Assembly (NCBI RefSeq): GCF_014196835.1
Contig: NZ_JACIEK010000005.1
Location: forward strand, 130,811 to 194,810
Origin: Aureimonas pseudogalii
GTDB taxonomy: Bacteria; Pseudomonadota; Alphaproteobacteria; Rhizobiales; Rhizobiaceae
Direction of reading: 5' to 3'
Length of the DNA stretch: 64,000 nucleotides
The notes beneath the pieces are model-generated. The model was given only the letters and a program-made list of their open reading frames with translations. It was not told the DNA's origin and did not search any database. The position numbers and the translations under genes are program-made. Every line of letters begins with the position of its first letter. Positions within the stretch are counted from its first letter, which is position 1. Shown piece after piece: positions 9,187-43,268 of the stretch.

Positions 9187-10131
9187 TCAGGCGTGGTGGG
9201 CCTGGAACCACTCGTAGGTCCGGCGCACGCCGTCTTCGAGGCCGATGCGCGGTTGCCAGCCCATGCCGCGCAGCCGGTCGGCGCTCATCAGCTTGCGCGG
9301 CGTGCCGTCCGGCTTGGTGAGGTCGTGGATGATCTCGCCGCGATAGCCGACGACGTCGCAGACGAGCTGCGTCAGCTCCAGGATGCTGAGATCCGTGCCC
9401 GATCCGATGTTGACGTGCATCTCGTCGGAATAGTGCTGCATCAGGAAGACCGCCGCATCGGCGCAGTCCTCGACATGCAGGAACTCGCGGCGCGGCGTGC
9501 CCGTACCCCAGACGGTGATGCTCGGCGCGTTCGCGAGCTTGGCCTCGTGCGCCTTGCGCAGGAGCGCCGGCATGACGTGGCTGGAGGCGAGGTCGAAATT
9601 GTCGCCGGGGCCGTAGAGATTGGTCGGCATGCCCGAGATGAAGTCCCAGCCATACTGGCGCCGGAACGCCTGACCGATCTTGATGCCGGCGATCTTGGCC
9701 ACCGCGTACCACTCGTTGGTGGTCTCGAGCGGTCCGGTGAGGAGCGATTCCTCCTCGATCGGCTGCGGCGCGAGCTTGGGGTAGATGCAGCTCGACCCCA
9801 GGAACAGGAACTTCTCGGTGCCCGCCTCGTGCGCCGCCTTCGAGACGTTCGCCGCGATCATCAGATTGTCGAACAGGAAGTCCGCCGGATAGGTGTCGTT
9901 GGCCAGAATGCCGCCGACCTTGGCCGCCGCCATGAACACCACGTCCGGGCGAAGGTCGCGCAGCAGGGCCTCCGCCTCAGTCTGGCGGCGCAGATCCGCC
10001 CGGTCGCGGCCCGCCGTCAGAACCTCGCAGTTCTCGCTCGCGAGGCGCCGCACGATGGCCGAGCCGACCATGCCGCGATGGCCGGCGACGAAGATGCGCT
10101 TGCCGGAGAGATCGTAGGAACCCTCAGGCAT
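9187..10131 (-). CDS. fcl: GDP-L-fucose synthase
   Basis: A 314-residue NADPH-dependent epimerase-reductase of the extended SDR superfamily. It converts GDP-4-keto-6-deoxy-D-mannose, the product of Gmd, to GDP-L-fucose in the cytoplasm. Motifs are the Rossmann loop [10 protein letters not shown] near residue 16, [10 protein letters not shown] with the catalytic Ser/Cys region, and the YAVAKIAG catalytic Tyr-x3-Lys. The conserved [13 protein letters not shown] and [15 protein letters not shown] follow. It overlaps the upstream gmd gene by 8 bases, so the two enzymes of the pathway are translationally coupled. The length is normal for the family. Confidence 0.95.
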
Positions 10132-11191
10132 CGGCCAGCACCGGGCTGTTCGCCATGATCTTCATGTCCTCGCGCACCATCTCGGCCACGAGCTCGCGCA
10201 CGCCGGTCTCGTGCTTCCAGCCGAGCACCTCGCGCGCCTTGGTCGGGTCGCCGAGCAGGAGCTCGACCTCGGTCGGGCGGAAGTAGCGCGGGTCCACCTC
10301 GATGAGGCAGGCGCCGGTTGCGGCGTCGAAACCCTTTTCATCGACGCCCGTGCCGCGCCATTCGATGGTGATGCCGACTTCGGCAAAGGCCCATTCCACG
10401 AACTGGCGCACATAGGTGGTCTCGCCGGTCGCCAGCACGTAGTCGTCGGGCTTTTCCTGCTGCATCATCAGCCACATGCCGCGGACGTATTCGCGGGCGT
10501 GGCCCCAGTCGCGCTGGGCGTCGAGATTGCCGAGATAGAGCCGCTCCTGGCGCTTCTGCTTGATGGCCGCGACGGCGCGGGTGATCTTGCGCGTCACGAA
10601 GGTCTCGCCGCGCAGCGGGCTCTCGTGGTTGAAGAGGATGCCGTTCGAGGCATGCATGCCGTAGGCCTCGCGGTAGTTCACCACGATCCAGTAGCCGTAG
10701 AGCTTGGCCGCCGCGTAGGGGCTGCGCGGATAGAACGGCGTCTTCTCGCTCTGCGGCACCTCCTGCACCAGCCCGTAGAGCTCGGAGGTGGAGGCCTGGT
10801 AGAAGCGCGTCTTGTCGTTCAACCCGAGAAGGCGGATCGCCTCGAGCAGCCGCAGCGTGCCGATCGCGTCGGCATTGGCGGTGTATTCGGGGGTCTCGAA
10901 GCTCACCTGCACGTGGCTCTGGGCCGCGAGATTGTAGATCTCGTCCGGCCGGGTCTGCTGCACGATGCGGATGAGGTTGGTGGAATCCGTCATGTCGCCG
11001 TAGTGCAGGATGAAGCGCGGATCCGCCTCGTGCGGGTCCTGGTAGAGATGTTCGACGCGGCCCGTGTTGAACGACGAGGAGCGGCGCTTCAGACCGTGGA
11101 CCGTATAGCCTTTCGACAGCAGCAGCTCGGCAAGATAGGCCCCGTCCTGACCCGTCGCGCCCGTGATCAGGGCAACCTTGTTTTCCGCCAT
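10124..11191 (-). CDS. gmd: GDP-mannose 4,6-dehydratase
   Basis: A 355-residue NADP-dependent extended SDR that converts GDP-D-mannose to GDP-4-keto-6-deoxy-D-mannose, the first step towards GDP-L-fucose or GDP-rhamnose. Diagnostic features are the Rossmann motif [13 protein letters not shown] at about residue 10, the [10 protein letters not shown] segment, the active-site STSELYG and [13 protein letters not shown] (Tyr-x3-Lys), and the [21 protein letters not shown] stretch typical of Gmd. It precedes and overlaps fcl. ManC and the phosphomannomutase at the start of the window supply its substrate. The 184-base gap to the divergent polymerase-like gene should hold the promoters of both. Confidence 0.96.
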
Positions 11192-11375
11192 GACGGCTCC
11201 TCATGCTCAATCGTAAGCCTGGTGCAGGCAAACTAGGCGGACTTAAACGCAATTGCGCTGTGCGGTGCAATGACGAAAGGATATCATGGGTGCGGTGCAG
11301 GCTGGATGTCGCCGTGTGGCAGGCCGGGACGGTGCCTGAAAGGACATGCGCCGTTCGCGTGGGACGAGGTGATCG

Positions 11376-12740
11376 ATGACGGTTGCAGGCCGTACACTTG
11401 CCGGGCGAGGCGTCCGGACTGCCCGGCAGACCGGTGGGCTCGCCGAGCAGCTACGCCGGTATCTTGACGTCTACATCCTCGTGGCCTCGCTGTTCGCCAC
11501 GTTCTTCCTCGACCTGCGGGGAACCGCCGAGATCGCTCAACTCGGCTCGACCGCGATCTGGGCCGACGATCTCGTGACGCTCGCCCTCGGGCCGCTGGTT
11601 CTCTTCATTCTGGGAACGCGCGTCCGCCTGCCGCTCGTGATCACCATCTTCACGCTGATCTACGCGGTCGCCATGCTGCGCGGGGCCTTCAGCGATCCGC
11701 TGCGGACATTCCTCGGCTTCCGCTTCGACACGGTGTTCTTCGGACTGCTGCTCTGCGTCCTCACCGGCGGCATCGAGCGCGTCGGCTACGGCCGCGTCAC
11801 GCAGATCTTCACCGGCTTCGCGCTGGCCACCTGCGCGCTCTCGCTGCTGCGCAACGTCTTCGGCTTCGAGCTTTTCGCGGCCGTCGAATGGACCACCATT
11901 CCGGGCGTTCTCTACAATGACGGGCGCACGCTCAACGCCTTTTCCGTGCTGCTTCTGTCGATCGCGATCGTGCTGCGCATGTGCCGGCGCATCGAGACGG
12001 GCCCGCCGGGCGAGCATCGCTTCCGTCTCGACGCGCTGACGATCCTGTTCCTCGCCGCGATCCTCCTGTCGGGACAGCGGACCGCCTCGATCGGCCTGAT
12101 GATCGCCCTCGGCTTCATGCTGTGCAACCGCTACCGCGGCGTCACCTATCTCGGCATCGTCGCCATCATCCTGGGCTTCCTCGCCCTCGCGATCACCAAC
12201 ACGCCGATCAACGCCCAGCTGATCGAAGGCACCGCGGCGCAATATGGCAAGGGCGGCACCTTCACCTACCGGACGCTGATCTGGTCCGGCTTCCTGCAGA
12301 ACCTCGCGGACTGGTCGACCTTCGACTACCTGTTCGGGTTGCCGCTCGGCGATCGGCCGAAATACTACCTGTTCACCGCCACGCACGTGCGCCTCTGGGG
12401 CGGATCGATCCACAGCGCCTATCTCGGCACCATCGTGAACACCGGCTTCGTCGGTCTGGCGCTGCTCATGGGCATCTCGCTCTGGCGGCTGATCACCGCC
12501 TATGCGGGCTACGTGACCTATGCCAGCCGCGGCTTCCGCTTCTCGCCCGAACTGCGGCTGTGCCTGGCGATGCTGATCATCGTCATCGGCTTCAGCTACG
12601 AGTGGCGCGGCCTCTGCGGCTTCGTCGTGGGCGTGCTCGTGGCTCTGCCGACGCGCAAGGAAAGCGTCGCCGCCCGCAGACCCGCGATCCCGCCCCGCAG
12701 CGATGTGACGGCAGCTCCCGGTCTTGCCCGCTCGGCCTGA
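11376..12740 (+). CDS. O-antigen ligase / polysaccharide polymerase-like membrane protein
   Basis: A 454-residue polytopic inner-membrane protein with roughly ten to twelve hydrophobic segments between residues 28 and 430. The large periplasmic-type loop after residue 285 (QYGKGGTFTYRTLIW) and the following SIHSAYLGTIVNTGFVGLALL resemble the Wzy_C/WaaL region, where a conserved His and Arg act in glycosyl transfer. I infer polymerisation or ligation of a fucose-containing exopolysaccharide or O-antigen, consistent with divergent gmd-fcl. The C-terminal 35 residues are polar and probably cytoplasmic. The ATG is preceded by a GAGG ribosome binding site 6 bases away. Assignment as polymerase versus ligase is not possible from this sequence. 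Confidence 0.8.
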   Translation: MTVAGRTLAGRGVRTARQTGGLAEQLRRYLDVYILVASLFATFFLDLRGTAEIAQLGSTAIWADDLVTLALGPLVLFILGTRVRLPLVITIFTLIYAVAMLRGAFSDPLRTFLGFRFDTVFFGLLLCVLTGGIERVGYGRVTQIFTGFALATCALSLLRNVFGFELFAAVEWTTIPGVLYNDGRTLNAFSVLLLSIAIVLRMCRRIETGPPGEHRFRLDALTILFLAAILLSGQRTASIGLMIALGFMLCNRYRGVTYLGIVAIILGFLALAITNTPINAQLIEGTAAQYGKGGTFTYRTLIWSGFLQNLADWSTFDYLFGLPLGDRPKYYLFTATHVRLWGGSIHSAYLGTIVNTGFVGLALLMGISLWRLITAYAGYVTYASRGFRFSPELRLCLAMLIIVIGFSYEWRGLCGFVVGVLVALPTRKESVAARRPAIPPRSDVTAAPGLARSA

Positions 12741-35480: not shown

Positions 35481-36548
35481 ATGCCCGATTTCCCGACGAC
35501 CGAAGCCGGCGCACCGCCGATCCTGCGCTTGGCCAACGTCTCCAAGCGCTTCGGCGCGCATGCCGCGCTCGCCGGCGTCGATCTCGAGATCCGCCGCGGC
35601 GAGATCCTCGGCATCATCGGCCGCTCCGGCGCCGGCAAATCGACGCTGATCCGCTGCATCAACGGGCTGGAGCGGCCCGACGCGGGGCGCGTCGAGGTCG
35701 AGGGCCGCGCGATCGAGGCGTTGAGCGATTCGCAGCTGCGGCCCGTGCGCCGGCGCATTGGTATGATCTTCCAGCACTTCAACCTCCTCGCCAACCGCAC
35801 CGCGGCCGAGAACGTGGCGCTGCCGCTGAAGATCGCGGGAACGAGCCGGGCCGAGCGCGAGCGCCGCGTCGCCGAACTCCTCGATCTCGTCGGTCTGGCG
35901 GGGCGCGGCGGGCAGTATCCCGCGCAGCTCTCCGGCGGGCAGAAGCAGCGCGTCGGCATCGCCCGTGCGCTCGCCGCCGACCCGGCCCTGCTCCTCTCCG
36001 ACGAGGCGACGTCGGCGCTCGATCCCGAGACCACCGAGCAGATCCTGGCGCTGCTCGCCGAGATCAACCGGCGGCTGGGGCTGACCATCGTCCTCATCAC
36101 CCACGAGATGGACGTGGTGCGCCGCATCGCCGGGCGCGTCGTGGTGCTGCATGCCGGCGCCATCGCCGAAGAGGGGCCGACGGGCCGCGTCTTCGCCGAT
36201 CCGCAGGCCGAGGCGACGCGCAACCTCCTCGGCGTCTCCGCCGCCGCCGGCCTGCCCGCCGCGATCCGCGACCGTCTTCAGGCCGACCCGTCGGGGGAGG
36301 CGATCCTGCGGCTCGATCTCGGCGGAGCGGCCGCGCCCATGCCGATCCTCTCGGACGTCGCGATCCGCCACGGCGTGGCGATCCGCATCCTGGGTGGAGC
36401 CGTGGACGAGATCGGCGGCGACACGGTGGGGCGGCTCTTCCTCGGCGTCACGCCGCGCGCGTCCGCCGATCTTCCCGCCATTCTCGACCAGCTCGCCGCC
36501 GCCACCCTTCGCACGGAACTTCTCGGCCATGTCTCCCCAGCTCGTTGA
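35481..36548 (+). CDS. metN: Methionine ABC transporter ATP-binding protein
   Basis: A 355-residue cytoplasmic ATPase. Motifs are Walker A GRSGAGKST near residue 48, Q-loop FQHFNLL, signature LSGGQKQRVGIARAL, Walker B ALLLSDEATSALD and switch HEMDV. A C-terminal NIL domain (about 275-355, LRLDLGGAAAPMPILSDV) is the regulatory methionine-binding domain that makes MetN distinct from other ABC ATPases. ATG 35481 is chosen; a GTG at 35466 in frame is possible. The gene overlaps metI by 20 bases, so the transporter subunits are coupled. Confidence 0.94.
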   Translation: MPDFPTTEAGAPPILRLANVSKRFGAHAALAGVDLEIRRGEILGIIGRSGAGKSTLIRCINGLERPDAGRVEVEGRAIEALSDSQLRPVRRRIGMIFQHFNLLANRTAAENVALPLKIAGTSRAERERRVAELLDLVGLAGRGGQYPAQLSGGQKQRVGIARALAADPALLLSDEATSALDPETTEQILALLAEINRRLGLTIVLITHEMDVVRRIAGRVVVLHAGAIAEEGPTGRVFADPQAEATRNLLGVSAAAGLPAAIRDRLQADPSGEAILRLDLGGAAAPMPILSDVAIRHGVAIRILGGAVDEIGGDTVGRLFLGVTPRASADLPAILDQLAAATLRTELLGHVSPAR

Positions 36549-37188
36549 CCTCCTCGTCCGCTCGACCTGGGAAACCATCCTGATGACGGCGGCGTCGGGC
36601 CTCGCCGCGCTCGTCGTCGGCCTTCCCATCGGGCTGGCGCTGGTCCTCACCGATCGGGGCGCGATCCTCGAGGCGCCCTGGACGAACCGCGTCCTCGGCG
36701 CGCTCGTCAACGCCTTCCGCTCCGTGCCCTTCATCATCCTGCTCGTGGCGCTCATTCCCTTCACGCGCCTCGTGGTCGGCACCTCGATCGGCACGCTGGC
36801 GGCGATCGTGCCGCTGTCGGTGGCCGCGATCCCCTATTATGCGCGCATCGCCGAGGTCTCGCTGCGTGAGGTCGATCCGCAGCTGGTGGAAGCGGCACGG
36901 GCCATGGGCGCGACGCGGCCCACTATCGTGCGCGAAGTGCTGCTGTCGGAGGCGCTGCCGAGCCTCGTGTCGGGCTTCGTGGTGACGCTCGTCACTCTCA
37001 TCGGCGCCACGGCCGTCGCGGGCGCCATCGGCGCGGGCGGGCTCGGCGACCTCGCGATTCGCTACGGCTACCAGCGCTTCGAGACGAGCGTGATGGTGGC
37101 GGTGGTGGCCGTACTCATCGCGCTCGTCTGCCTGCTGCAATGGGGCGGCGACCGGCTGGTGGCGCGCCTCGACCATCGCAAGGGCTGA
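36529..37188 (+). CDS. metI: Methionine ABC transporter permease
   Basis: A 219-residue inner-membrane permease with five hydrophobic segments, the MetI size. The EAA loop that contacts MetN is seen as YYARIAEVSLREVDPQLVEAARAMGATRPTIV, near residues 103-134. GAIGAGGLGDLAIRYGYQRFE follows in the periplasmic-side turn. It starts inside metN at ATG 36529 and ends the operon. The next gene, jetA, begins 130 bases later, far enough for its own promoter. Confidence 0.94.
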   Translation: MSPQLVDLLVRSTWETILMTAASGLAALVVGLPIGLALVLTDRGAILEAPWTNRVLGALVNAFRSVPFIILLVALIPFTRLVVGTSIGTLAAIVPLSVAAIPYYARIAEVSLREVDPQLVEAARAMGATRPTIVREVLLSEALPSLVSGFVVTLVTLIGATAVAGAIGAGGLGDLAIRYGYQRFETSVMVAVVAVLIALVCLLQWGGDRLVARLDHRKG

Positions 37189-37317: not shown

Positions 37318-38724
37318 ATGCCGCTTTTCGACGTCCTGCCTCCCGATCTCTTCCGGCCGCTCGCCGCGGCCTCGAAGCAGCTCTATGCCGAGTTGCTGCT
37401 GCACCTCCACCGCACCGCCTTCGCGCTGGCCGGCGAGGCGCCGAGCCGGTCCGAGGTGGTCGGCGAGATCGAGGCGTTCCTCACCGGCTTCGAAACCGGC
37501 GGCGAGCCGGCTGCGGACGACGAACTGCCTGATGTCACACGGCCCGAGGACCGCCCGTCCGCCTATTATGCCCGGCTGATCGAGACGGGCTGGCTCGTCG
37601 AGCATCGCGAGCGCTACGTGCGCCGGGTGGATCTCGACCCCGACGCCGCCGGGCTGCTCCACCTCCTGTCGCAGATCGAGCGCGGCGAGACGCGCACCTA
37701 TGGCGGCGCCGTGCTCGGCGTGCTCGCGGCGCTGGAGAGTGCGGCATCGCAGCCGCTGGAGCGCTCCGAGAGCCTGCAGAACGCGGCGCGCGAATCGGCT
37801 GACTTCATGGCCCATATGCGAACCGTCTCGGTGTCGCTACGCCAGGCGGAAGATCGCATCCTGCGCCAGCCGACGCTGCGCGAGGTCTTCCGGCACTTCT
37901 TCGAGGATTTCGTCGAGCGCCATCTCATCCGCGACTTCAAGACCCTGCACACGAAGGACAATCCCTTCCGCTTCCGCTCCGGCATCGTGCGGCAGGCCGT
38001 CGCCATGGCCGAGGACGCCGCGCTGGTGGCCGCGCTCGGCGCGGCCTACGCCCGCGAGGGGCGGGCGCCCGACGCCGGCGAGGGCGAGGCGCGCGTGCGC
38101 GGCGAACTCGCCGAGATCGAGCGGGTGTTCGAGGCGGCGGCCTCGCATCTCGACGCGATCGACGGCACGGTGGCGCGCATCGAGCGGCGCATCGTCAACG
38201 CCGCCCGCTACATGGACCGGATCGCCAATCCTTCGCAGGCTCTCATCGCCGAGGCGCTGCGCGTGGTCGCCGGCTTCGAGGGCGACGAGGTGCCCGTGGC
38301 GACGGCGCTCCTGCCGCGCATCCTGCCGCTCGGCCCCGTGCACATTCCCGCGCCGCGCCGCGAGCGCGCGCCGATCGAGCCGACGATCCTCCATGATACC
38401 GAGCCCGACCCCGCCGTGGTGCTCTACGCCCGCGCCAAGGAGGAGTATGTGCGGCGAACGCGCGTCACCGCGCCGGTGCTGGCCGCCTTCTTGGAGCGGG
38501 CGCTCGGGGCGGGGTCGCAGGTGCGCGGTCGTGACATCGGCGTCGTGACGGTGGACGACTTCGTGGCCTTCCAGCGGCTGCGGGAGCTGCCCTCGATCTT
38601 CGGCGGCGCGCTTGCGAAGCCCTACGAGATCGTGCTCCTTCCCGAGCGCTGCAGCAACGACTGGATCTCCTGCCAGGATTTCCTGATCCGCCGCAGGCCA
38701 ACAGGACAGACGCATGCAGCGTGA
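37318..38724 (+). CDS. jetA: JetA/MksF-like kleisin subunit of a Wadjet-type SMC complex (DUF5716-like)
   Basis: A 468-residue protein, first gene of a three-gene SMC operon. The N-terminal winged-helix-like region (LFDVLPPDLFRPLAAASKQLYAELLLHLH) and a mid-part rich in helices (AEIERVFEAAASHLDAIDGTVARIERRIVN, residues 260-300) fit the kleisin JetA/MksF, which bridges the SMC heads and binds JetB. Identification rests mainly on position: jetB overlaps its 3' end by 11 bases and jetC follows. In the family it belongs with DUF5716-type JetA rather than DUF3375, as far as can be judged by eye. Weak AGGTT ribosome binding site before ATG 37318. Confidence 0.8.
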   Translation: MPLFDVLPPDLFRPLAAASKQLYAELLLHLHRTAFALAGEAPSRSEVVGEIEAFLTGFETGGEPAADDELPDVTRPEDRPSAYYARLIETGWLVEHRERYVRRVDLDPDAAGLLHLLSQIERGETRTYGGAVLGVLAALESAASQPLERSESLQNAARESADFMAHMRTVSVSLRQAEDRILRQPTLREVFRHFFEDFVERHLIRDFKTLHTKDNPFRFRSGIVRQAVAMAEDAALVAALGAAYAREGRAPDAGEGEARVRGELAEIERVFEAAASHLDAIDGTVARIERRIVNAARYMDRIANPSQALIAEALRVVAGFEGDEVPVATALLPRILPLGPVHIPAPRRERAPIEPTILHDTEPDPAVVLYARAKEEYVRRTRVTAPVLAAFLERALGAGSQVRGRDIGVVTVDDFVAFQRLRELPSIFGGALAKPYEIVLLPERCSNDWISCQDFLIRRRPTGQTHAA

Positions 38725-39394
38725 GACCGACGAGTTCCGCGACATCGTGGACGGCGACTGGGCGGGCGGCCACATCGCCGGCCGGCGCCCGAACGCCGAG
38801 GAACTGACGCGCGCCCTTCAGGTGATGATCACGCGCCAGTGCGTCTACGCCCACACGAGCGGTGTCGGGCGCACCTACGATCTCGTGCGCGCCTATTCCG
38901 GCTTCTTCGAGCGCTATTTCGGGGCGCTCGGCTATCGGCTGGCCGTGTCGCCGCGCGACCAGATGGTGGCCTTGAGCGTGCCCGCCGACGAGCCGCGCTA
39001 CGATGGCGTCTTCGAGCGCCTGCGCAAGGACGAGACGCTGGTTCTCCTGGCGCTGCGGCTTCTCTGGGAGGAGGCGCTGCGCACGCACGAGATCGGCGAG
39101 GCCGGCATCGTCGAGACCTCCACCGACGATCTCGTCGATCGGCTCGCGGCGGTCACCGGCGCGCCGCCGCCCGAGGAGACGCGCCTCACCGAGATCCTGC
39201 GCGGCTTCGCGCGTCACGGCGCCGTCCGGCTCGGCGAGCGAGACCGGATCCGGCGCGCCTCGCCGCTCGCCGTGCTGCCGGGCATCGCCGTGCTCGTGCC
39301 CGACAGCTACCTCTCCGACCTCACCCTCTGGGCAGGCGCGCCGCCGCGCGCCGCCGCGCCCGGCGAGGCCGACGGGGAGGGTGCCCGTGTATAG
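38714..39394 (+). CDS. jetB: JetB/MksE-like protein (DUF4194)
   Basis: A 226-residue winged-helix (KITE-type) subunit of an SMC complex. The core ALQVMITRQCVYAHTSGVGRTYDLVRAYSGFFERYFGALGY (residues 35-75) and the following LRKDETLVLLALRLLWEEAL resemble DUF4194/JetB and MksE proteins. It should bind the JetA kleisin and help open and close the complex. Its start lies inside jetA and its stop lies 8 bases inside jetC, so all three proteins are made together. Length is normal for the family. Confidence 0.85.
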   Translation: MQRETDEFRDIVDGDWAGGHIAGRRPNAEELTRALQVMITRQCVYAHTSGVGRTYDLVRAYSGFFERYFGALGYRLAVSPRDQMVALSVPADEPRYDGVFERLRKDETLVLLALRLLWEEALRTHEIGEAGIVETSTDDLVDRLAAVTGAPPPEETRLTEILRGFARHGAVRLGERDRIRRASPLAVLPGIAVLVPDSYLSDLTLWAGAPPRAAAPGEADGEGARV

Positions 39395-42300
39395 CCTTCG
39401 CCGCATCTCGCTGGTGAACTGGTACCTCGTCGACGCCAAGGACATCGAGATCCGCGGCGAGGCCGCGCTGATCGGGCCGACCGGCGCCGGCAAGTCCTCG
39501 ATCCAGGACGCGATCCAGACCGTCATCACCGGCGTCAATGCCAACCGGCTGAACCTCAACGCCAGCGCCAGCGGGCGCTCCTCGCGCAGCGTCCTCGAAT
39601 ATTGCCTCGGCATGACCGGCGACCCCGCCGAGGACGGCCGGCCGCTGCGCTCGTCCTGCGAGACCATTCTCGCGCTGACCTTCGTCAACGACTACACCGA
39701 CGAGCCGATCGCCGTGGGCGTGGCGCTCGCCGCCCGCCATGGCGACAGCCGCGAGGAGGTGCTCTCGCGCTTCATCGTGCCGGGCCACGCCTTCACGGTG
39801 GAGGACATCCGCCGGGGAAAAAGCGGCGTCGCGCCCTGGGCCGAGATCGCGGCCCGGCTGCGCGCGCTCAGCCCCGAGATGAGCGAGCACCGCGCCTCGG
39901 CCGAGCGTTTCACGTCGGAAATGCTGGCGGCGATGCGCGGCCCCGGCCAGCCGCCGAACGCGCGGCATTTCCTGCGCGCCTTCTCCAATGCGCTCGCCTT
40001 CAAGCCGATCTTCGATCCCACGATCTTCGTGCGCGACTTCGTGCTGGAGCCCGAACCGCTGGACGTCGAGCGCGTGCGCGCCTCCATCGCTACCTGGCGT
40101 GAACTCGAACGGCTGATCGAGGACGCCGAATCGCGGCATCGCCATGTCCGGCGCATCGCCGAGCGCTTCCGCGTCTGGGCCACAGCGCGGCTCGGCGCCG
40201 ACCGCGAGCGCTGGCGGGCCGCGAGCGCCGAGGCGCGGCGCTGCGCCCACGAGGTGCGGGCCGCCCGTGCGACGCTGCTGGCGCGCTTGCGCGAACTCGA
40301 GATCGAGCGGGGTGTGCTCACCAGCCGCCGAGAGTGGATCCGCAACTGGGACGACGAGATCCGCTCGCGCCAGGCGCTTCTGGCGCAGGCCGGGGGCGAA
40401 TCGCAGCTGCGCCAGATCGCGGCGGAGGCCGCGCTCGCCGGGCGCGACCTGAAGGAGGCCGAGGCCGCCTGGACACGCATCCGCGGTGCCTTTGCGGCGC
40501 TCGTGCGCCTTGCCGAGACGGCCGGCACAGTCCACGGCGCCCATGCCGGCGCCGTGGACGCGGCTCGGCAGGCGCTGGCGCTGGCGCCCGAGGGCACGCC
40601 GCTTCACGAGGCGCTGCGCGGGCGCGGCGACCGGCTGCAGGCGCTGGCAGCCGAGGCAGCGGCGATTGAGGCCTGGAGCTTCGATCTCGATGACGCCGCC
40701 GACCGGCTGGCGGCCGAGGCTCGGCAGCTCGAATCCGATCTTCTGCGCGTCGAAGGCGGGCTGCAGCGCCCGGCCGGCGCCATCCTCTCGCGCGAGACGA
40801 CGCGGCTGCTCGCGATGCTCACCGAGCGCGGCATTCCCGCGGTGCCGCTCTGCGACGTCGTCGAGGTGGTGGATGCCGAATGGCAGTACGCCGCCGAGGC
40901 GCTGCTCGGGCGCGGGCGCGAGGCGGTGATCGTCGAGCCACGCCTTCTGCCCTCGGCCTTCGACCTGATGTGGAGCGACCGCAACGCCTTTGCCGGCTGC
41001 ACGCTGGTGAAGACGAGCGCGACGCGCGGCACGCCCGTGCACGTGCCGAAGGGCAGCATCGTCGAGGCGCTGCGCTCCGACGACGAGCACGCGCGCGCCT
41101 TTCTCGCCGTGCGCATCGGCGCCTTCCGCAAGGCCGAGACCGATGCCGAGCTCGACCGGCTCGACCGCGGCGTGATGCGCAACGGCAAGACCTCCTCGGG
41201 CATGGGCCTTTCGGTCCAGCGCGACCTGCGCGACCTCGTTCTCGGGCGCGGCGTGGACGAAGGGCGCAACGGACGGTTGGAGGCCGAGGCGACGGCGCTG
41301 CGCCGCGCGATCGGCGAGAATCGGGTAAAGCTGCGGCTCCTGCGCGAGGCCGCCCGGGGCCTGCCGGCCATCGTCACGGCGCTTCGGGCCGAGCCCGGTC
41401 CGTTCGACCTCGAGCACCGCGTCTCAGCGGCGCGCCTGCGCACGGAGACGCTCTCGCGCGACCGGCGGGCGGTGGAGGCGGGCGACGCCAGCGAGCTTCG
41501 GGCCGAGATCGACGAGATCCGGGCCGAGCGCGACGCCCATGCCACGGAACTGGCCGAGGAGGTGGAGCCGCGGGTGCAGGAGCTGCAGGGGAGCGCCGCG
41601 ACGGCCCGCGCGAAGCTCGATCTCGCCACCGAAAAGCTGCGCGGCGCCTCGCTCGCGCGCCGGCGTGCCTGGAGCGCGATCGACGACGAGGGCAGCCGCG
41701 CGCTCGTCGCCGCCGGGCCTGAGGGCGAGCGGCTCGATCCCGTCGAGCTTTGCGCGAGGTTTCGCGAGCGCGTGCGCCACGAGGAGAGCGAACGGCGCGA
41801 CGCCGCCGCCTGGCTCTCGACCCTTCGCAACGACGCGCGCGCGGCCGCCGAAGCGAGCGAGGGCACGGCGCGCCGCGAGCAGCTGGTGGCGCTGCGCGAT
41901 CTCACCGAATATGCCGCGAGCTGGAAGGTCGCGGTGCCCGCGGTCGATGCCGACACGATGGTTAACGGCTATCTGTGGATCGTCGACGAGACGGCGCGAC
42001 TGGAGACGCACGAGCTGCGCGGCTACCGCGACGCCTGCGCCAAGGCCGGCGACGAGATGCGCCGCATGCTGCGCGAAGATCTGCTGGCGCGGCTGTCGGA
42101 GAAGCTCGGCAAGGTCTCCTATCGCCTCGCCGGCATCAACCGCCTGCTGAAGCGCCACCGCTTCACCGGGCAGACCTACGCCTTTACCTACGCGGTCAAC
42201 ACACGGCTCGCGAGCCTTCATGCGCTGGCCGAAAGGGCGGCGGCGGGCGAGCTGACCGACGAGGTCTTCGACGGCTCGATGGGCGAGGTGGAGGCGATGA

Positions 42301-42806
42301 TCGAGGGCGGCGAGGATGCCGTCGCGATGGCCGACTATCGGCAGTATTTCACGTTCGAGATCGTGATGACGGACGCGCGCGGCGGCCGCACGACGCTGTC
42401 GTCCCGCGCGTTGAAGGGCTCGGGCGGCGAGGCCCAGGTGCCGTTCTACGTGGCGATCGCCGCCTCGCTGGCGCTCGCCTACTTCCCCGGTCATGTCGCG
42501 GGGAAGCCCGCCGGCATGGGACTGGCGCTGTTCGACGAAGCGTTCAACAAGCTCGACGTGCCGAACACGCAGGCGCTCCTGCAGTTCTTCCGCGACATGG
42601 GCCTGCAGCTTCTCATCGCCGGCCCCGAGGACAAGCGCGCCACCTTCACCGAGGTGCTGGATACGATCGTGCTGGTGAACAAGTCGCTGGACGGGCGCTC
42701 GGTCTATATCGACACGGAGCATCCGGGCGCGGCCGCCAAGGCGGCTCTCGCGCGGCTCAACCCCGACCATCGCGGGATCGAAGGCTTCCGCTCCGCCGCC
42801 GAATAG
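39387..42806 (+). CDS. jetC: JetC/MksB-like SMC ATPase
   Basis: A 1139-residue SMC-like ATPase. The N-terminal head half has Walker A GPTGAGKSS (residues 30-38). Long coiled-coil arms with many Arg, Glu and Ala heptads occupy roughly residues 230-480 and 620-880, with a globular hinge-like part between (about 480-620). The C-terminal head half carries the signature GSGGEAQVPFY near residue 1011 and Walker B MGLALFDEAFNKLD near 1048, which include the catalytic Glu. I chose GTG 39387 because GGGGAGG lies six bases before it; GTG 39381 is too close to that site. No jetD/mksG nuclease gene follows: the next gene, 58 bases on, is convergent DUF6481. The complex therefore looks like a loop-extruding motor without its partner nuclease in this locus. 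Confidence 0.9.
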   Translation: MYSLRRISLVNWYLVDAKDIEIRGEAALIGPTGAGKSSIQDAIQTVITGVNANRLNLNASASGRSSRSVLEYCLGMTGDPAEDGRPLRSSCETILALTFVNDYTDEPIAVGVALAARHGDSREEVLSRFIVPGHAFTVEDIRRGKSGVAPWAEIAARLRALSPEMSEHRASAERFTSEMLAAMRGPGQPPNARHFLRAFSNALAFKPIFDPTIFVRDFVLEPEPLDVERVRASIATWRELERLIEDAESRHRHVRRIAERFRVWATARLGADRERWRAASAEARRCAHEVRAARATLLARLRELEIERGVLTSRREWIRNWDDEIRSRQALLAQAGGESQLRQIAAEAALAGRDLKEAEAAWTRIRGAFAALVRLAETAGTVHGAHAGAVDAARQALALAPEGTPLHEALRGRGDRLQALAAEAAAIEAWSFDLDDAADRLAAEARQLESDLLRVEGGLQRPAGAILSRETTRLLAMLTERGIPAVPLCDVVEVVDAEWQYAAEALLGRGREAVIVEPRLLPSAFDLMWSDRNAFAGCTLVKTSATRGTPVHVPKGSIVEALRSDDEHARAFLAVRIGAFRKAETDAELDRLDRGVMRNGKTSSGMGLSVQRDLRDLVLGRGVDEGRNGRLEAEATALRRAIGENRVKLRLLREAARGLPAIVTALRAEPGPFDLEHRVSAARLRTETLSRDRRAVEAGDASELRAEIDEIRAERDAHATELAEEVEPRVQELQGSAATARAKLDLATEKLRGASLARRRAWSAIDDEGSRALVAAGPEGERLDPVELCARFRERVRHEESERRDAAAWLSTLRNDARAAAEASEGTARREQLVALRDLTEYAASWKVAVPAVDADTMVNGYLWIVDETARLETHELRGYRDACAKAGDEMRRMLREDLLARLSEKLGKVSYRLAGINRLLKRHRFTGQTYAFTYAVNTRLASLHALAERAAAGELTDEVFDGSMGEVEAMIEGGEDAVAMADYRQYFTFEIVMTDARGGRTTLSSRALKGSGGEAQVPFYVAIAASLALAYFPGHVAGKPAGMGLALFDEAFNKLDVPNTQALLQFFRDMGLQLLIAGPEDKRATFTEVLDTIVLVNKSLDGRSVYIDTEHPGAAAKAALARLNPDHRGIEGFRSAAE

Positions 42807-42863: not shown

Positions 42864-43268
42864 TCAATTGTTGCGGCGCGCCTGCCGGGCGGCGTAGCGC
42901 GCGTCTCGGGCAGCCTTGAGGGCCGCCTCGTCGCGCAGGAAGCTCGCCACATGCTTGTCGGCTTCCTTGGCCTTGGCCTTCTCGGCGGCGAGCTCGGCTT
43001 CGAGCGCCTCCTGCCGGACGGCCTCTTCCTGGGCCGCCACCTCGGCGGCGACGCGCTGGCGCTCGGCCTCTTCGAGAGCCTGAGCTTCGGCTTCCTTGGC
43101 GCGGGCGGCTTCGCGTTCCGCGCGGGCTGCGACCACCAGGGCGCGCTCGGCGCGGCGCGCCTCAAGAGCGGGGTCGGCGAGCTTGGCCTTCGCCTTCTCG
43201 AGAAGAGCGGCCTTGGCCTGGCGTGCGGTGTCGCGGCGCCCCGCAAAATCTGCGTTGTCGTGCTTCAA
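42864..43268 (-). CDS. DUF6481 family protein
   Basis: A 134-residue, highly charged, Ala/Arg/Glu/Lys-rich protein. The N-terminal FAGRRDTARQAKAALLEKAKAKLADPALEARRAER resembles DUF6481 proteins of Hyphomicrobiales. The rest is one long predicted helix or coiled coil ending in DARYAARQARRNN. Function is unknown. The frame has no ATG at the family start, so I place it at TTG 43268, which gives (M)KHDNADFAGRRD. A promoter-like pair lies about 75-100 bases upstream. It is convergent to jetC with a 57-base gap. Confidence 0.75.
   Translation of the reverse strand: MKHDNADFAGRRDTARQAKAALLEKAKAKLADPALEARRAERALVVAARAEREAARAKEAEAQALEEAERQRVAAEVAAQEEAVRQEALEAELAAEKAKAKEADKHVASFLRDEAALKAARDARYAARQARRNN

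Follow-up and report, generated by a model that had tools for sequence, protein, structure and literature searches.

A jetABC operon without a detectable jetD gene in Aureimonas pseudogalii and its likeness to MksBEF

Type I Wadjet systems (JetABCD, also named MksFEBG or EptABCD) join a kleisin (JetA), a KITE subunit (JetB) and an ATPase of the structural maintenance of chromosomes (SMC) type (JetC) to the nuclease JetD (MksG). Dimers of JetC that are bridged by JetA, with JetB also bound, load onto DNA and drive loop extrusion with ATP. In passages of several papers, the related MksBEF complexes are described as widely distributed and often accompanied by MukBEF, Smc-ScpAB or another MksBEF (PMC4255302), MksBEFG of C. 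glutamicum is contrasted with MksBEF of P. aeruginosa (PMC7083940), a four-gene operon including MksG is reported as conserved in Pseudomonas species (PMC10123090), and MksBEF and Wadjet are handled as one kind (PMC10512200). The relevant part of a review presents P. aeruginosa MksBEF as a nuclease-free SMC–kleisin–KITE complex thought to be derived from JetABCD, and MksBEF, perhaps also MukBEF, as defence systems minus the weapon, an idea based largely on comparison (PMC10586767). Here, we analysed the jetABC operon in a 64,000-nucleotide stretch of the Aureimonas pseudogalii genome (contig NZ_JACIEK010000005.1, positions 130,811 to 194,810; hereafter, the window). The operon matches type I Wadjet in its JetA, JetB and JetC families, its A-B-C gene order, its overlapping genes and its ATPase motifs, and differs from it in having no JetD that could be detected in the locus or elsewhere in the genome. 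On balance, we favour the reading that jetABC encodes an MksBEF-like chromosome-organising motor, derived from type I Wadjet through the loss of JetD, because of the family matches, the absence of JetD, the clade to which the operon belongs, the low ratios of non-synonymous to synonymous substitution (dN/dS) and the absence of detectable Smc and ScpA from the same genome.

Gene set and families of the operon

The preliminary description of the window, made from the sequence alone, had reported three tightly overlapping genes for JetA-, JetB- and JetC-like proteins, and the open reading frames (ORFs) together with Pfam and PADLOC family searches bear this out (Table 1). The jetA/jetB and jetB/jetC overlaps measure 11 and 8 bp, and the three ORFs are intact, as they are at nine orthologous loci. 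A list of ORFs placed the jetC start at 39003; we adopted the GTG start given in Table 1, because an ATG occupies the equivalent codon in nine orthologues from the same genus. JetC matched the PADLOC family JetC1 (PDLC00506) with 1443.7 bits and an E value of 0, so that the gene set of the type I JetA, JetB and JetC families stands in one operon. The ATPase motifs, which the preliminary description had read as intact, are conserved in 10 JetC orthologues: residues 30–36 and 38 of Walker A are invariant, residue 37 is S or T, and the signature and Walker B are invariant. A scan of the operon for promoters and terminators found none.

Profile searches against solved structures matched JetB chains with the JetB profile (E 2.4e-9) and JetC chains with the JetC profile (E 2.5e-21), MukB being far weaker with the latter (E 3.4e-6). 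No solved JetC chain was found in a single-sequence JetC search of these structures, nor a solved JetA with the JetA sequence profile. The JetB model (predicted local distance difference test, pLDDT, 85) fits the JetB of 8as8 (VIA Z 13.2, root mean square deviation 4.5, 180 residues aligned) and also matches the MukE fold. The JetA AlphaFold model is of modest confidence (pLDDT 72, predicted template modelling score 0.44); its top Foldseek match was chain E, presumably JetA, of 8q72 (a JetABCD entry), with an E value of 5.4e-4 and a TM-score of only 0.18, followed by MukF. The complex thus shares the kleisin/KITE/SMC plan of MukBEF, with the MukE fold matched by the JetB model and the MukF fold, weakly, by the JetA model, whereas JetC scores as JetC1 and its MukB match lies far below that to JetC. 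Smc-ScpAB belongs to the same superfamily, but JetC reached 23 bits against the Smc family TIGR02168, whose cut-off is 567, which places it outside Smc. Looking for a JetD-docking motif, we took up the IFDR motif that the review cited above mentions for the N-terminus of JetB (PMC10586767); we could not relate the short JetB N-termini of Alphaproteobacteria to this motif and make no claim on it.

Table 1. Positions of the jetABC genes, the JetC motifs and the flanking genes in the window
Feature	Position	Strand	Remarks
jetA / mksF, kleisin	37318..38724	+	468 aa; PF18982 3.9e-84; PADLOC JetA1 PDLC00466 1.7e-171
jetB / mksE, KITE subunit	38714..39394	+	226 aa; DUF4194 7.9e-18; PADLOC JetB1 1.9e-93
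jetC / mksB, SMC-type ATPase	39387..42806	+	1139 aa, GTG start; AAA_29 2e-13, SbcC_Walker_B 5.6e-20
Walker A of JetC	39474..39500	+	residues 30–38 GPTGAGKSS; sequence reading
ABC signature of JetC	42414..42437	+	residues 1010–1017 KGSGGEAQ; sequence reading
Walker B of JetC	42519..42539	+	residues 1045–1051 GLALFDE; sequence reading
metI (named by eye), upstream neighbour, outside the system	36541..37188	+	87% identity to a gene in genome G012
Convergent frame, outside the system	42864..43253	−	129 codons; called DUF6481 in the preliminary description

Distribution of JetD and the JetC tree

The preliminary description had found no nuclease gene in the locus. This holds, and the whole genome (5.0 Mb, 99.99% complete) likewise gave no match to PF09983 (JetD_C) or PF11795 (DUF3322) at an E value of 0.001; no jetD stands as a fourth gene. 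PF11795 was applied to this genome and PF09983 to all genomes. PF09983 is able to detect JetD in this class: among 38 genomes reached through JetC loci, it matched 10, eight with JetD in those loci and two with JetD elsewhere. The eight are all the genomes whose JetC loci carry JetD by a profile of our own, which was built from two JetD seeds, both first found through PF09983.

Across 101 genomes, comprising that of the window and its relatives, JetA was detected in 11 and JetD in 4. Within the genus (21 genomes), jetABC occurs in 10; of these, only the metagenome-assembled genome (MAG) G002 has JetD as well, at the end of an additional, complete jetABCD (L029). An even sampling of the class (385 genomes) contained eight JetA matches, six of them above the cut-off; jetD adjoins jetA in four of these six (G094, G189, G374 and G433) and does not in the genome of the window or in G421, and the two weaker matches (G371 and G385) came with no JetD match. 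In G189, JetC is divided between two frames that lie upstream of the jetD frame (L120:9581-14585), through either an error or a real break. Another genome of the order, G061, has JetD close to a protein with an SbcC-type Walker B and no PF18982 JetA (L030, about 9700-11500), probably representing another Wadjet subtype.

To place the operon among its relatives, we used a pattern scan with one genome per species, in which the best 80 of 273 JetC relatives yielded 78 loci; three of the 19 plasmid records with a match were read. The tree comprises 43 JetC proteins, leaving out eight duplicate loci, most Oceanospirillales loci, partial JetC genes, L123 and L120. Seventeen Hyphomicrobiales rows, from Aureimonas, Antarcticirhabdus, Microvirga, Rhizobium and Methylobacterium, group together (Shimodaira–Hasegawa-like approximate likelihood ratio test, 99), and none has an adjoining jetD. 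This clade sits among alphaproteobacterial complexes most of which retain jetD, in a group of 25 rows with JetD in six. For the rows L110 and L111 (plasmid), JetD was checked within 9 kb on each side; 15 clade genomes were searched whole, and 13 lack JetD (that of the window, eight others of the genus, Leaf427, the MAG of L035, Antarcticirhabdus and G421). In the remaining two, G002 and Microvirga massiliensis, JetD lies only inside a separate complete JetABCD. A jetD elsewhere in the genome that is conserved together with the operon, which the preliminary description had named in advance as the result that would speak against it, was therefore not found, and the absence of JetD is not a local loss but lineage-wide. 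The complete M. massiliensis jetABCD lies beside gyrB, recF and dnaN (named by eye; L119:6074-12983), about 640 kb from the JetD-less jetABC (L041) on the same contig, and on another contig there is an isolated C-terminal piece of JetC (174 aa) that shares 80% identity with the JetC of the window (L098:8959-9483).

The JetD-less rows from Oceanospirillales and Geomonas form a different group (12 in the tree), in which JetD was found in none of the 16 genomes searched whole. Forcing both main JetD-less groups into one clade was rejected (approximately unbiased test, p-AU 3e-5), and the JetD-less state of the Hyphomicrobiales clade is best read as independent of that gammaproteobacterial group. 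Salipiger (L048:6922-12420) and Novispirillum (L102:4331-10026) have single JetD-less operons among JetD-bearing relatives, with no JetD in locus or genome. Altogether, the presence of JetD changed at least four times on the JetC tree. The tree is silent on whether these were losses or gains, because the count of changes is independent of the root.

Substitution rates show jetABC to be under purifying selection. In five close pairs from seven sister genomes (15 comparisons; three of the five pairs share genomes), dN/dS was 0.055–0.118 for jetC, 0.071–0.179 for jetA and 0.120–0.231 for jetB. The copy in the window has no close pair; compared with L026 and L027, at dS values of 0.60–0.77, it gave 0.34–0.38 for jetC, 0.31–0.39 for jetA and 0.20–0.26 for jetB. 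Its identity to G012 is 66% in jetA, 78% in jetB and 71% in jetC, beside 79–81% for the syntenic pdxA and its neighbour and 69–70% for metQ and metN; 18 window frames matched in 2.0 Mb of G012 span 28–94%, some probably being paralogues or wrong frames. These levels are consistent with descent within the genus and are no proof of it.

Smc and ScpA in the genus

According to a passage of a further paper, P. aeruginosa has Smc beside MksBEF (PMC7485682), whereas none was found in Aureimonas. The best score in the genome of the window against TIGR02168 was 28.6 bits, far from the cut-off of 567 (47 of 60 candidates scored), and ScpA (PF02616) was not found there. At an E value of 1e-20, with six candidates scored per genome, Smc was missing from all 21 genomes of the genus, including the three single-contig genomes G003, G005 and G007, which also lack jetABC. 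Among the other 80 relatives, Smc was present in 74, with 70 exceeding the family cut-off; the six without it, which belong to the same family and are named by elimination, are G026, G040, G042, G043, G047 and G057. Of these 80 relatives, 70 have a ScpA match, as against none of the 21 genomes of the genus; all 27 Smc-less genomes lack it, and so do G025, G069, G085 and G091 (partly by elimination). We regard Smc as the stronger evidence, because in this order ScpA gives weak scores anyway (E 5e-7 to 6e-23). The 27 Smc-less genomes are related to each other and hence are not independent cases. The search for ScpB covered 2.0 Mb of G012, and none of the tested genes that flank smc or scpAB in relatives lay in these 2.0 Mb of its 3.74-Mb main contig, so that deletion sites were not seen.

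The SMC–kleisin complexes detected in the genus are JetABC alone in 10 genomes, with the full Wadjet in addition in G002, and none in the other 11. In the 10 genomes that carry it, JetABC may therefore be the sole complex of the condensin type. In the 11 genomes without jetABC, a search with PF13558 (SbcC/JetC-type Walker B) returned nothing in six and one weak match each in five (at most 27.2 bits). We considered a second SMC complex in these genomes and rejected it: the five matches are one family of SbcC-like ATPases beside an SbcD-like gene. This pair (L216:8102-11548, L221:5122-7986, L225:5434-8082) occurs in the ten Smc-less genomes that were read and in none of the five Smc-bearing genomes of the same family that were checked, and in some loci porin-like genes follow it.

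The open-licence literature yielded no paper on SMC or condensin in Aureimonas or on ScpA in Aurantimonadaceae and, among the matches listed, no title on Smc loss that concerned this group of Rhizobiales or Aurantimonas. A phrase for the loss of JetD was found, among the matches listed, only in the review (PMC10586767). Given the MksBEF precedent, a JetABC that has no nuclease is of a known kind; what is new, within the open-licence literature searched, is its occurrence in this alphaproteobacterial lineage and in an apparently Smc-less host.

Possible roles of a nuclease-free JetABC

In the scenario we favour, a type I Wadjet would have lost its JetD nuclease in an ancestor of the Hyphomicrobiales clade, and jetABC would have been retained as a DNA motor that runs on ATP and has no nuclease. 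By analogy with its family, the JetABC dimer would extrude DNA loops without cleavage. No JetD implies no cut, which makes the organisation of the chromosome or a large replicon a likely task; the complex may contribute to organisation or segregation, as MksBEF does in P. aeruginosa. Like MksBEF-type condensins without MksG, the locus is a three-gene SMC–kleisin–KITE operon related to JetABC and has no nuclease. P. aeruginosa MksBEF is not among the sequences in the JetC tree, where the JetD-less gammaproteobacterial group is a separate clade. With no Smc or ScpA found, a chromosomal role becomes more likely, without being compulsory. A bolder version, which we put forward only tentatively, is that a disarmed Wadjet became the sole condensin of the jetABC-carrying Aureimonas after the loss of Smc-ScpAB, a course separate from those of MukBEF and of MksBEF in P. 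aeruginosa; species that carry neither complex would then have genomes of normal size and no condensin at all.

Several observations weigh against a chromosome-organising role reached through the loss of JetD. The tree was quickly built, contains several long branches and does not distinguish loss from gain of JetD. Related jetABC copies lie on plasmids, five different neighbourhoods were counted within Aurantimonadaceae, and jetA is patchy, being present in 10 of the 21 genomes of the genus. Such patchiness makes it dispensable at the species level and would suit an accessory or a defence gene equally well. Moreover, the 11 genomes without jetABC also lack detectable Smc. As Smc is missing both with and without JetABC, a strict replacement is disfavoured, and jetABC is not what makes the loss of Smc tolerable in those 11 genomes.

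The neighbourhoods were named by eye. Seven of the nine orthologues in the genus share one site, near genes for EF-P, EpmA, EpmB and a NUDIX protein; L026 and L027 share a second, the window represents a third, and Leaf427 and Antarcticirhabdus add two more. In the window, metQ, metN and metI precede the operon (names by eye or from the preliminary description), while in G012 the position after metI is taken by another gene instead of jetABC. The frame labelled DUF6481 had no match above 60 bits at the nine orthologous loci, and the arrangement between metI and DUF6481, whose conservation the preliminary description had proposed to check, was not found there. The operons of Methylobacterium bullatum (L111) and of G421 (L118), whose JetC is nearly the same, stand beside rpoN, hpf and ptsN. 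A JetD-less jetABC is carried by a 1.3-Mb Rhizobium leguminosarum plasmid (L110:6445-12465), and a more distant one by a 316-kb Salipiger plasmid (L123:4964-10423); a plasmid-borne motor of this kind could have a role in the partition of its own plasmid. Carriage by viruses was considered and dropped, since none of 48 pattern matches in viral contigs was confirmed as a jetABC relative.

Three roles had been left open in the preliminary description: chromosome organisation, the use of a nuclease encoded elsewhere, and action on plasmids without cutting. A role without cutting is favoured, and the nuclease elsewhere is disfavoured, as in the clade genomes searched whole JetD occurs only inside separate complete JetABCD operons. 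Of the two alternatives to a chromosomal motor, control of plasmids or other mobile elements without cleavage, in which small circles would be fully extruded and then compacted, silenced or mis-segregated, is the less improbable, and we consider it unlikely. It would suit subunits of type I Wadjet families with a patchy distribution in the genus, and the EFxxIVD segment at the JetB N-terminus closely resembles its counterpart in L044, a relative with JetD, suggesting that partner surfaces may persist. However, all four subunits were required to suppress plasmid transformation in B. subtilis, according to a passage of the review (PMC10586767). The neighbours of the operon argue in the same direction: as the preliminary description had held for the window, those recognisable by eye there and at the nine loci of the same genus are not defence genes.

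It appears distinctly improbable that a gene elsewhere, unrelated to jetD or strongly diverged from it, provides the nuclease in trans. The searches covered the known JetD families, which an unrelated enzyme would escape, and G002 and M. massiliensis do hold JetD elsewhere; but these two genes end their own complete jetABC, PF09983 matched nothing in the 13 other clade genomes searched whole, and no gene recurs beside jetABC across the five neighbourhoods by eye, which also led us to reject a conserved neighbour as a replacement effector. That the operon is a decaying, functionless remnant of a defence system, as the loss of an essential subunit and the lone JetC fragment of M. massiliensis might suggest, is largely refuted by dN/dS values well below 1 and is further opposed by intact ORFs in the window and at nine orthologous loci, by conserved motifs and by a clade old enough to span several families.

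A chromosome-organising, MksBEF-like JetABC would make this clade a further lineage that has no nuclease but maintains the motor under selection, with JetD-bearing relatives at hand for comparison. A genus in which neither Smc nor ScpA was found may offer a clean setting in which to test the role of jetABC, through species with and without it, and the apparent lack of both proteins across 21 genomes is noteworthy in its own right.

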